Origin: Candidatus Daviesbacteria bacterium
GTDB taxonomy: Bacteria > Patescibacteriota > Microgenomatia > Daviesbacterales > UBA10151
Assembly: GCA_027451625.1 (NCBI GenBank)
Contig: DAIDIY010000014.1
Span: 1 to 41,683, forward strand
Length of the DNA stretch: 41,683 nucleotides
Direction: 5' to 3'
The notes under the pieces are model-generated. The model was not told where the DNA came from. It searched no databases and saw nothing but the letters and a program-made list of their open reading frames with translations. Positions within the stretch are counted from its first letter, which is position 1. Every line of letters starts with the position of its first letter. Of the stretch, positions 12,688 to 15,531 are shown one piece after another. The position numbers and the translations under genes are program-made.

Positions 12688-13194
12688 ATGATTCAGCAAA
12701 CTTTAGTAGTTATTAAACCTGACGGGGTAGAAAGAAATCTAATAGGAGAGATTATTAAACGTTATGAAGACGCAGGCCTTAAGATAGTTAAATTGAAGAT
12801 GATGCAAACAAACGATTCCCTAATGAAGCAGCATTATCCACATACAGATGAATATTTTGAAAGCATCGGTAAGAAAAGTGCAGCCGCTGGAGATAATATT
12901 ACTGATTTTATTGCTCAAGGCAGAAAAATTGTTTCTTCGTTAGTTGAATATTTACAGTCAGGACCAGTAGTGGCAATGGTTTTGGAAGGAGAGGAAGCTA
13001 TACCTCTGGTTAGGAAAGTAACAGGATATACGGATCCTGCTACTGCCGAAAAGGGGACAATTAGAGGTGATTTAGGAGAAGACACAATCTTAAAAGCCAA
13101 TAGCGAAGGTAGAGCAGTAAAAAATTTGATCCATGCTTCTGGTAATCTAGAAGAGGCAACCGCTGAGATTAAGTTGTGGTTTGGATTAATATAA
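12688..13194 (+). CDS. ndk: Nucleoside diphosphate kinase, long form
   Basis: Transfers the gamma phosphate between nucleoside di- and triphosphates through a phosphohistidine. It is 168 residues, compared with about 140 in most bacteria. The opening LVVIKPDGVERNLIGEII is typical, the Arg/Gly segment GTIRGDLG is present, and the active-site histidine lies in NLIHAS (the family usually has NxxHGSD). The extra length is an insertion of roughly 25-30 residues in the region SIGKKSAAAGDNITDFIAQG, after the helix that normally leads into the substrate site. It has its own promoter and is followed by an AT-only hairpin (13208-13230). Confidence 0.95.
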   Translation: MIQQTLVVIKPDGVERNLIGEIIKRYEDAGLKIVKLKMMQTNDSLMKQHYPHTDEYFESIGKKSAAAGDNITDFIAQGRKIVSSLVEYLQSGPVVAMVLEGEEAIPLVRKVTGYTDPATAEKGTIRGDLGEDTILKANSEGRAVKNLIHASGNLEEATAEIKLWFGLI

Positions 13195-13293
13195 TAGTTT
13201 TGTAATATATTATTTTATTTGAAAATAATATTCATTTGAATCCTTCATATCGGCATAAAATTCTCCAGGTAAAGTTTAAAGTAACGACTGAAA

Positions 13294-13322
13294 TTGCAAA
13301 GGTTTTTTTAAGAAGGTAGAAT
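13294..13322 (+). promoter_or_regulatory. Promoter of the tRNA-tRNA-sortase unit
   Basis: TTGCAA (13294-13299), 17-base spacer, TAGAAT (13317-13322). Transcription would start around 13329, only about three bases before the first base of tRNA-Pro at 13332. No other promoter is visible before the sortase gene. Confidence 0.65.
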
Positions 13323-13331
13323 GGAAGTGAT

Positions 13332-13404
13332 CGGAGAGTAGCTCAGTGGCAGAGCGCACGCCTCGGGCGCGTGAGGTTCGGAGGTTCAATTCCTCTCTCT
13401 CCGA
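13332..13404 (+). tRNA. tRNA-Pro (anticodon CGG)
   Basis: Complete cloverleaf: acceptor CGGAGAG with CTCTCCG, D stem GCTC/GAGC, anticodon stem CACGC/GCGTG with loop CTCGGGC (anticodon CGG), variable region, T stem GGAGG/CCTCT with loop TTCAATT, discriminator A at 13404. CCA is not encoded. The variable region appears to be six bases, and one T-stem pair is G-T. Confidence 0.95.
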
Positions 13405-13405
13405 C

Positions 13406-13479
13406 GTCCCTATAGCTCAGATGGATAGAGCATCCCGGTCCTAACGGGAAGGTCCCCAGTTCGACTCTGGGTAGGGATA
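13406..13479 (+). tRNA. tRNA-Arg (anticodon CCT)
   Basis: Complete cloverleaf: acceptor GTCCCTA with TAGGGAT (first pair G-T), D stem GCTC/GAGC, anticodon stem TCCCG/CGGGA with loop GTCCTAA (anticodon CCT, reading AGG), T stem CCCAG/CTGGG with loop TTCGACT, discriminator A. CCA is not encoded. It begins one base after tRNA-Pro and ends three bases before the sortase ATG. Confidence 0.96.
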
Positions 13480-13482
13480 CTT

Positions 13483-14190
13483 ATGGTATTATCTGGAGAT
13501 TTTAAAAAAGTTTTTCTACTTCGTTTTTTAGGATATGCTTTTATTCAAATTGGTCTTCTTTCTGCTCTACTAATTGTCGAGCCAGTGATTATTTCAGAAT
13601 TAAAATATCGTCTAGAAAATTTAGTGGGATATCATCATGTTTTACCAAAGATAGTAACGTCAATTAATCAGAATGGAGAATTATCAGCTTCTGTTTCTGG
13701 GTCAGAATCTTTCGGGAATTTAATCTTTGGTGGATCTAATATAATTACTCCGGTTGATACTAATTTTGGGATTGTTATAGAAAAGATTAATGCTAATTCT
13801 CGAGTGATAGATGTTGATGCTTCTAACGAACAAGAGTATACAGTAGCCTTGGGTAAAGGGGTTGCTCATGCAGAGGGAACAGCTTATCCAGGGCAGAAGG
13901 GTAATATCTTTTTATTCTCTCACTCAGTGCAGGCTCCATGGGAAGTTGTTAGATTTAATGCAGTATTTTATCTTTTGAGAGATTTAGTACCAGGAGATAG
14001 AATTGTAATGTTTTATAAAAATCGACGTTATGATTATATCGTATTCGATAAAACTATTGTTGATCCTTCTGATACTCATTTTTTAACTGATAGCTATAAT
14101 GAGTCAATTCTGACATTACAAACTTGTGATCCCCCAGGAACTTTAAGCCATCGTTTAATAGTTAGAGCTAGATTGGCTTCAAATAGCTAA
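13483..14190 (+). CDS. Sortase family transpeptidase
   Basis: A 235-residue membrane-anchored sortase. There is one N-terminal hydrophobic helix (about residues 12-35), then an extracytoplasmic beta-barrel with the catalytic triad of the family: His in LFSHSV, Cys in LTLQTCDPP and Arg in HRLIVRARL. It would attach surface proteins or act on pilus-like substrates, but no protein with an obvious LPxTG-type sorting signal is present in the window. The ATG is only three bases after tRNA-Arg, with no ribosome binding site, so its mRNA is probably released as a leaderless transcript by tRNA 3' processing. The sortase class cannot be assigned by eye. Confidence 0.92.
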   Translation: MVLSGDFKKVFLLRFLGYAFIQIGLLSALLIVEPVIISELKYRLENLVGYHHVLPKIVTSINQNGELSASVSGSESFGNLIFGGSNIITPVDTNFGIVIEKINANSRVIDVDASNEQEYTVALGKGVAHAEGTAYPGQKGNIFLFSHSVQAPWEVVRFNAVFYLLRDLVPGDRIVMFYKNRRYDYIVFDKTIVDPSDTHFLTDSYNESILTLQTCDPPGTLSHRLIVRARLASNS

Positions 14191-14201
14191 TGATTTATTG
14201 A

Positions 14202-14229
14202 TTGTCTTATTATAAAGTAGTGCTACAAT
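14202..14229 (+). promoter_or_regulatory. Promoter for PEGA protein, leaderless layout
   Basis: TTGTCT (14202-14207), 16-base spacer, TACAAT (14224-14229). The start codon GTG lies nine bases after the -10 box. The promoter supports the GTG start at 14239, for which no ATG alternative fits. Confidence 0.6.
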
Positions 14230-14238
14230 ATAAGAAAA

Positions 14239-15531
14239 GTGAATAAGAAGACTCTTGTTACTATAATAAGTTTGTTTTTAATAATTATTGCGGCAGCGAT
14301 AGCTGTTGTCCTGACAAAAGGATATACTTTCTCCCCAACTCAAGTCAAAGTCTTAGGAACAGGGATAATTTCTGTTACCTCTGTTCCAGATGGGGCCTCA
14401 GTGTATATTGATGGACATCTAACAACAGCAACTGATTCTACAGTATCTCAGCTTGCTCCTAAGGTTTATGATGTTAAAATTGTTAAGGATGGTTATATTC
14501 CTTGGGAAAAAAAGATAGATGTTAACGAAGGATTAGTTTCTGAGGTTAAAGCAACTTTATTCCCCGCATTGCCAACATTTTATCCTCTCACAACTAATGG
14601 TGCTGTCAATCCATCTTTATCGCCAGATGGACAAAAATTAGCATTTGCCGTACCTTTGTCCGTTGATTCAGGTGGAGTGAGGCAAAAAGGAGGAGTATGG
14701 GTGTGGACAATGAGTTCGCAACCAATTGCGTTTGCTCGAAGTGCTGAACCTCACCAGGTAGTAGTATCAGATGTGAATCTGGATTTCTCTAAAGGTAATT
14801 TTAGATGGTCTCCGGATTCGAAGCAAATGTTAATTTCAGTTCAAGCTGGAGGACAACCGGGAGATGCTGCAGCTAGGAATTATTTAGTTTCCGCTGATTC
14901 ATTTACTCCGACAGATAGTTTGCAAGATATTACTCCTCAAGTCCAATCAATTGTTCAAAGTTGGAGTGATGATCAAAAATCTAAAAATGACGCGCAGATT
15001 TCGGCGATTAAGAACAAACAAGCATTTGCAGTAGCATCTGAGTCTGCTGTTCTTTCCGTAGCCTCAGATTCAGCTTCATTAATAAATATTCCATCTCACC
15101 GAGAGCTTTTATGGTCACCTGATGATACAAAGTTTATGGTAATTAGCTCTCCTTCTCGACAATATGAGTCTAAGGGAGGTACTCCGTCAGTATCTCCTAA
15201 TCAGAAGTTGTCAGCTCAAGTTTATGATTTTGGAACAACTGGCAGTAAATCTACAGGACCAGTCAATGGCTATACAACATTTAAGCTATATAATCTTCCT
15301 TCAGCTGAAAAATATATGTGGCTTCCCGACTCTATGCATGTGATTCTAGTGGATAAAGATAAAATTTCTATATGCGAATTTGATGGAAGTAATGTGTCAA
15401 TAGTTTATGCCGGGAATTTTGAAGCAGGAGAAGTGTTCCCCTGGCCTGACTCATCAAGACTAGTTATGTTAACTTCATTCAATACTCCGACAGCTTCAAC
15501 TCCGAATCTGTTCGGTATCAACCTTAAATAG
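14239..15531 (+). CDS. Membrane-anchored PEGA domain / beta-propeller-like protein
   Basis: A 430-residue protein. It has one N-terminal membrane helix (about residues 5-27), then a PEGA domain (VTSVPDGASVYIDGH through KIVKDGYIPWEKKIDV, about residues 45-105) of the kind found in surface proteins. The rest is a region with repeated WD40/TolB-like strands: NPSLSPDGQKLAFAV, FRWSPDSKQMLIS, LLWSPDDTKFMVIS, YMWLPDSMHVILV. It faces outside the cell and is likely a binding or scaffold protein rather than an enzyme. It starts at GTG following a leaderless-type promoter. It ends 12 bases from the convergent glycosyltransferase gene. Confidence 0.85.
   Translation: MNKKTLVTIISLFLIIIAAAIAVVLTKGYTFSPTQVKVLGTGIISVTSVPDGASVYIDGHLTTATDSTVSQLAPKVYDVKIVKDGYIPWEKKIDVNEGLVSEVKATLFPALPTFYPLTTNGAVNPSLSPDGQKLAFAVPLSVDSGGVRQKGGVWVWTMSSQPIAFARSAEPHQVVVSDVNLDFSKGNFRWSPDSKQMLISVQAGGQPGDAAARNYLVSADSFTPTDSLQDITPQVQSIVQSWSDDQKSKNDAQISAIKNKQAFAVASESAVLSVASDSASLINIPSHRELLWSPDDTKFMVISSPSRQYESKGGTPSVSPNQKLSAQVYDFGTTGSKSTGPVNGYTTFKLYNLPSAEKYMWLPDSMHVILVDKDKISICEFDGSNVSIVYAGNFEAGEVFPWPDSSRLVMLTSFNTPTASTPNLFGINLK

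Follow-up and report, generated by a model that had tools for sequence, protein, structure and literature searches.

A tRNA-Pro, tRNA-Arg, and sortase unit

The 41,683-nucleotide contig analysed here (the window, meaning the whole of this stretch) belongs to a Candidatus Daviesbacteria genome (G000; 1.15 Mb, 98.45% complete, the window being one of its 51 contigs). The genome falls within the Microgenomates, very small bacteria that are for the most part uncultured. Two tRNA genes and a sortase gene follow one another closely on its forward strand, and the locus has the following features.

13294 to 13322, forward strand: promoter-like site TTGCAA-17-TAGAAT, matching 9 of 12 consensus bases
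13332 to 13404, forward strand: tRNA-Pro(CGG), identified by ARAGORN, Rfam, and reading by eye
13406 to 13479, forward strand: tRNA-Arg(CCU), identified in the same three ways
13480 to 13485, forward strand: the junction, consisting of the spacer CTT and the start codon ATG; the spacer has no room for a Shine-Dalgarno (SD) sequence
13483 to 14190, forward strand: sortase with an N-terminal membrane anchor, identified by profile matches and aligned residues

The two tandem tRNAs score 61.5 and 58.4 bits with Rfam (gathering score 29), and a single C separates the end of the first (13404) from the beginning of the second (13406). Both have an A as the discriminator base and neither encodes CCA; in G000 as a whole, 8 of 43 tRNAs end in CCA at the ARAGORN boundary. 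The sortase ATG at 13483 is 3 nt (CTT) past the tRNA-Arg discriminator A13479. These are the distances given in the original prediction, one base between the tRNAs and three before the ATG. Since the next in-frame start codon (GTG) is 102 nt inside the ORF, the start of the sortase is not in doubt.

The site TTGCAA-17-TAGAAT ends nine bases ahead of tRNA-Pro, which is compatible with a start site 2 to 3 nt before the tRNA. It had been described as a clear promoter. The site is present, but with only 9 of 12 bases matching, and with eight promoter-like sites in a pattern scan of 13150-14300 where 4.1 are expected by chance, it is weak by itself and does not stand out, as a pattern, from chance in this AT-rich stretch. 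The same scan found no terminator-like site in the junction region and, downstream of the tRNA-Pro promoter, no forward-strand promoter-like site until the sortase begins. The tRNAs and the ORF thus share a strand with no terminator or promoter between them, as in a tRNA-mRNA operon, and the three genes likely form one transcription unit, as had been proposed. The start codon stands directly behind the tRNA 3' end, as in tRNA punctuation, and the 3-nt spacer is compatible with a leaderless gene. The spacer and the clean scan agree with the prediction that neither a ribosome site nor a second promoter precedes the sortase, whose message would be leaderless or nearly so. No unusually stable fold was found across the junction (z -0.40 against shuffles). 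Downstream of the sortase, the promoter-like TTGTCT-16-TACAAT (14202-14239) ends 9 nt ahead of the GTG of the next gene, which encodes a PEGA protein and may also be nearly leaderless.

The sortase ORF encodes 235 amino acids and matches PF04203 (80.3 bits, cut-off 26.6; E 1.3e-22) and TIGR01076 (47.9 bits, above the cut-off of 39.35). His147, Cys215, and Arg224, which we take to be the catalytic residues, are invariant in 16 aligned rows. The NCBIfam subfamily cut-offs for sortase classes C, D, E, and GN were missed (51.3 of 160, 48.0 of 165, 42.0 of 160, and 19.3 of 158 bits, respectively). A general rule that sortases sit behind tRNAs fails for the other two sortases of G000: the second (C2:15014-15837; L002:1501-2319) has a divergent tRNA-Arg(UCU) upstream, and the third has no tRNA within its locus. 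Feedback through AGG codons, which tRNA-Arg(CCU) reads, is ruled out, as the sortase gene contains no AGG codon.

Conservation of the junction

To follow the junction through the family, we searched 45 genomes from 32 genera; a search of the order gave the same 45. Six (G005, G011, G012, G019, G036, and G040) had no orthologue by score and were excluded, leaving 39 orthologues, among them that of G037 at 192 bits. Start codons were set by rule (the last ATG, else another start, before the conserved N-terminus), and gaps were counted between the tRNA end given by ARAGORN and the ATG so selected. A same-strand tRNA-Arg(CCU) lies upstream of the sortase in 35 of the 39 genomes, at 0 to 9 nt in 27 and at 27 to 777 nt in eight. 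The remaining four have the tRNA pair upstream on the opposite strand (G022, G024) or 2 kb downstream (G021), or a contig that starts 393 nt upstream of the sortase (G017). Among all loci read in the family and class, a contig edge also limits the upstream sequence in G154 (156 nt) and G131 (197 nt). The junction is therefore conserved in relatives, the check proposed with the original prediction, and a linkage private to the window genome is ruled out. The surroundings vary: 22 of the 27 tight family loci have a divergent tRNA-Pro (42 to 46 nt from tRNA-Arg in 10 of these), whereas tRNA-Pro and tRNA-Arg are in tandem in the window, where the unit begins with tRNA-Pro; in most family members the tRNA of the junction unit is tRNA-Arg.

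Elsewhere in the class, 54 loci were sampled from the 56 best-scoring of 136 genomes searched (all but G090 and G069). Of these loci, 31 have a tRNA-Arg or tRNA-Pro on the same strand within 250 nt upstream, and the junction is tight (0 to 10 nt) in 13, behind tRNA-Arg in 10 and tRNA-Pro in three; in G070 the sortase ATG directly follows the encoded CCA. A phylum search provided 27 loci for viewing, 23 of them outside the class. Twelve of these 23 have a tRNA in the viewed stretch and none has an apparent tight junction, with distances measured to the matched part of the sortase rather than to a start codon; the nearest same-strand tRNA is 177 nt before the matched part (G278). A tRNA-Leu(CAA) lies within 1.5 kb upstream of the matched sortase, on either strand, at seven of the 23 (L351, L353, L355, L356, L357, L359, and L361).

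Other tRNA-to-gene gaps and the surrounding gene block

As a control, we used 176 ARAGORN tRNAs from the fetched stretches of G000, G007, G029, and G174, 78 of which are followed by a same-strand gene (longest-ORF calls). A 3-nt tRNA-to-gene gap is not usual for these genomes. With CCU tRNAs left out, 12 of 74 gaps are 10 nt or less, seven of them in G174. In the three family genomes, such gaps occur at 5 of 49 other tRNAs, whereas the sortase gap is this short in 27 of the 35 family loci with a same-strand tRNA-Arg(CCU) (Fisher p 3e-10, only a guide because the rows are related). When the downstream proteins were compared among the four genomes, only two gene pairs recurred behind the same tRNA: Arg(CCU) with the sortase (4/4) and Thr(CGU) with a PF09136 protein (3/4). 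G000 has two other close pairs by simple ORF calls, tRNA-Pro(GGG) (C46:26582-26655) 1 nt before a 129-residue ORF and tRNA-Cys(GCA) (C48:37253-37324) 5 nt before a 336-residue ORF; neither recurs in the comparison genomes.

The tRNA-sortase linkage belongs to a wider conserved block. A PEGA relative adjoins the sortase in 73 of 93 loci, including 37 of 39 in the family, and NDK and MreB are often also near this pair. Because the block is syntenic, adjacency alone proves little, and the case for selection on the linkage itself is weakened even though the linkage is conserved; it is the shortness of the gap, and the fact that it turns up repeatedly, that call for explanation. A serious rival to any functional account is neutral compaction with inherited synteny: the block of NDK, tRNAs, sortase, PEGA protein, and MreB is old, and in a small genome of leader-free genes a gene may come to lie against a tRNA by drift, to no functional effect. 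The persistence of the PEGA neighbour and the tight gaps at other tRNAs favour this account, but the excess of short gaps at the sortase and the recurrence of only two pairs do not. We regard it as rather unlikely to be the whole explanation.

Start signals

SD words precede the sortase in 4 of 40 tight loci and 1 of 53 others. The 53 non-tight loci, however, have a second signal. A -10 box with five or six matching bases is located 11 to 14 nt before the AUG in 14 of them, peaking at 12 to 13 nt, where 1.9 are expected and at most seven were obtained in 500 shuffles. These 14 orthologues have a candidate leaderless promoter; the other 39 have no start-adjacent box of that quality. The predominance of detached loci without one moves some weight from a processing model to compaction. 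None of the 40 tight loci has a box of even four matching bases at this place, an absence that is partly forced (0.09 expected) because tRNA sequence occupies the position. In 27 of 39 tight loci a -10 box lies ahead of the junction tRNA, where 8.1 are expected and 300 shuffles gave no more than 16, so that the relatives provide better support for a promoter than the window site alone. We read the sortase as a gene that probably works without a leader, either from its own start-adjacent promoter or from a tRNA promoter followed by a cut.

The start-adjacent boxes of the many orthologues without a tight junction also raise the idea that the sortase promoter is located inside the tRNA genes, with the primary transcript beginning at or near the AUG. 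The missing boxes at all 40 tight loci speak against this, as does the clean forward-strand scan from the tRNA-Pro promoter up to the sortase in the window, and we consider it very improbable.

For a broader view of start signals, 96 genes with an unambiguous ATG were kept from G000, G007, G029, and G174, and 165 were skipped. SD words were found at 5/30, 0/9, 1/16, and 2/41 of these genes, respectively, and start-adjacent -10 boxes at 6/30, 1/9, 4/16, and 16/41; the window alone has SD words at 2 of 14 genes and a start-adjacent box at 1 of 14. Leaderless starts therefore appear to be widespread, with G174 the clearest case, and many genes have neither signal. The absence of a ribosome site at the sortase, though correctly predicted, is ordinary in these genomes, where few surveyed genes have one.

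An SD sequence might also be contributed by the tRNA itself. The sequence AGGGA at 13473-13477, the 3' strand of the tRNA-Arg acceptor stem, is 5 nt before the ATG and could act as an SD site if an uncut tRNA-sortase RNA were translated with tRNA-Arg unfolded. This would also explain the short gap, and AGGG or GGGG occurs with good spacing near the end of many tRNA-Arg genes. However, the G-rich stretch is paired within the tRNA, the CGGCGC ends in G004, G015, and G018 have no G run, and SD words are few at surveyed genes. The tRNA-Pro (G128, G145, and G164) and tRNA-Thr junctions also lack a G run, which rules out an SD inside the tRNA as a general mechanism. Translation of an uncut RNA in this way is improbable, if slightly less so than a promoter inside the tRNA genes.

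History of the junction

A quick tree was constructed from 90 sortases, leaving out the fragments G063, G057, and G037; G002, whose sortase is in two frames, is a long-branch outlier. At least 23 changes of the tight state are required on this tree, and supported branches force 11 of these. The tight tRNA-Pro junctions of G128, G145, and G164 represent three separate events. A state that is gained or lost this often is dispensable, as compaction would have it. Among pairs taken independently from supported branches, an average of 2.7 of 11 combine a -10 box with lost tightness and none show the opposite; with so few pairs, this association is not significant.

Three loci retain parts of a second tRNA-Arg in the space that separates the sortase from the intact tRNA: its 3' half in G038 and G118, and an 18-nt tRNA end in G130 (loci L114, L163, and L168). 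Such leftovers suggest how a new tRNA may replace an old one and leave the end of its predecessor beside the gene. The duplicated 3' parts are as tRNA replacement or an integrating element might leave them.

The 3'-processing nuclease

RNase Z had been named as the enzyme that cuts behind the tRNA, and this part of the original prediction was not supported. There was no match to the RNase Z model TIGR02651 at E 0.001 in G000 or G070, and the two PF12706 matches in G000 are RNase J, encoded on contig C35, and a metal-dependent hydrolase nearest PRK00685, below the cut-off of that model. The RNase Z of mitochondrial-type punctuation was thus not found in G000 with these two models. TIGR02651 matches are RNase J in G007 and G174, and frames of RNase J length, identified as such from their length, in G022 and G029. 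None of 59 class genomes passed the TIGR02651 cut-off, which only 9 of 14 control genomes passed; weaker matches occur in 38 of the 59 class genomes, many of them in frames the size of RNase J and some in frames of 255 to 324 amino acids. A PF01743 nucleotidyltransferase, a family of CCA-adding enzymes and poly(A) polymerases, is present in all six genomes searched. RNase J or another endonuclease is a candidate for the cutting enzyme.

A second pair with a membrane protein

A tRNA-Thr(CGU) in G000 (L025:1501-2386) is followed by the gene for a membrane-anchored, Ig-like protein. The protein has one membrane anchor, recognized by eye, and a Glucodextran_B (PF09136) domain. It is present in 93 of 101 class genomes, and a same-strand tRNA-Thr lies upstream in 24 of 30 loci examined (L287-L316). 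Of the 29 loci used (G103, without an ATG, was dropped), 11 are tight (0 to 12 nt), all behind tRNA-Thr. Start-adjacent -10 boxes occur at 0 of 11 tight and 6 of 18 other loci, one of the 18 having an SD word. The A of the start codon is also the A of the encoded tRNA CCA in G174. This pair behaves like the tRNA-sortase pair.

A proposed processing model

The anatomy of the unit, the gap common to relatives, the absent ribosome site, and the -10 boxes of relatives are read directly from the DNA, and a course of expression can be proposed for them. RNA polymerase would start just before a tRNA (tRNA-Pro in the window, tRNA-Arg in most family members) and continue through it into the sortase. 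The transcript would then be cut between the tRNA and the AUG as the tRNA 3' end matures, freeing a sortase mRNA with 0 to 9 nt ahead of its start codon. This mRNA would be translated without SD contact, as many messages here seem to be, and the cutting nuclease would be something other than a recognizable RNase Z, with RNase J or another endonuclease as a candidate. On balance we lean slightly towards this account, in which the tRNA promoter drives a sortase gene that is leaderless by nature and tRNA 3' processing sets the 5' end of its message.

A wider and more tentative reading, about as doubtful as compaction and perhaps a little less so, is that tRNA punctuation is a device of the Microgenomates. 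Evolution would have co-opted tRNA 3' ends, more than once and with different tRNAs, to generate leaderless mRNAs that begin at the AUG and encode envelope proteins, namely the sortase behind tRNA-Arg or tRNA-Pro and the anchored Ig-like protein behind tRNA-Thr. Expression of surface proteins would then be coupled to the making and maturing of tRNAs. Because RNase Z was not found in G000, this reading calls for a different nuclease, with RNase J as a possibility.

Comparison with known systems

In animal mitochondria, tRNAs directly border genes, and their excision by RNase P and an RNase Z of the ELAC2 type makes leaderless mRNAs, which is known as tRNA punctuation. The sortase junction is similar in that a tRNA directly borders the gene and its excision would give a leaderless mRNA. 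It differs in that RNase Z was not found here, in that two conserved junctions rather than a whole genome are involved, and in being read from DNA sequence. Among bacteria, thrU-tufB of E. coli is a tRNA-mRNA operon. The yifK-argX locus of Salmonella is likewise described as a tRNA and protein gene sharing a processed transcript (PMC3879156). There, however, the mRNA of yifK precedes the tRNAs and has an SD (PMC3879156), whereas the sortase follows its tRNA and has no room for a leader.

Propionibacterium acnes is reported to have no obvious tRNase Z, yet endonuclease cuts were mapped there at tRNA 3' ends (PMC3848588), which makes it a precedent for such cuts without this enzyme being evident. 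It also has many leaderless mRNAs; most of its tRNAs are transcribed singly, and the excerpt does not tie leaderless mRNA to a tRNA cut (PMC3848588). A -10 box close before the start codon has been described as a sign of leaderless mRNA in bacteria (PMC5397173). Many detached sortase orthologues have such a box, and the tight loci have a tRNA 3' end in place of it. The excerpt of that paper, on non-SD and leaderless genes, does not mention candidate phyla (PMC5397173). Among the matches listed from open-licence PMC papers, titles and the beginnings of abstracts contained neither a bacterial leaderless mRNA made by tRNA processing nor a conserved tRNA-sortase junction.

For annotation, the junctions mean that an ORF whose start codon abuts a tRNA is not necessarily miscalled in this class. 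Two questions become testable, namely how the 5' ends of leaderless genes arise, and which nuclease completes tRNA 3' ends where RNase Z is not found. Relatives in which a start-adjacent -10 box takes the place of the tRNA can serve directly for comparison. If the transcript is cut as proposed, the sortase unit would parallel, in bacteria, the mitochondrial messages whose ends are defined by tRNAs.
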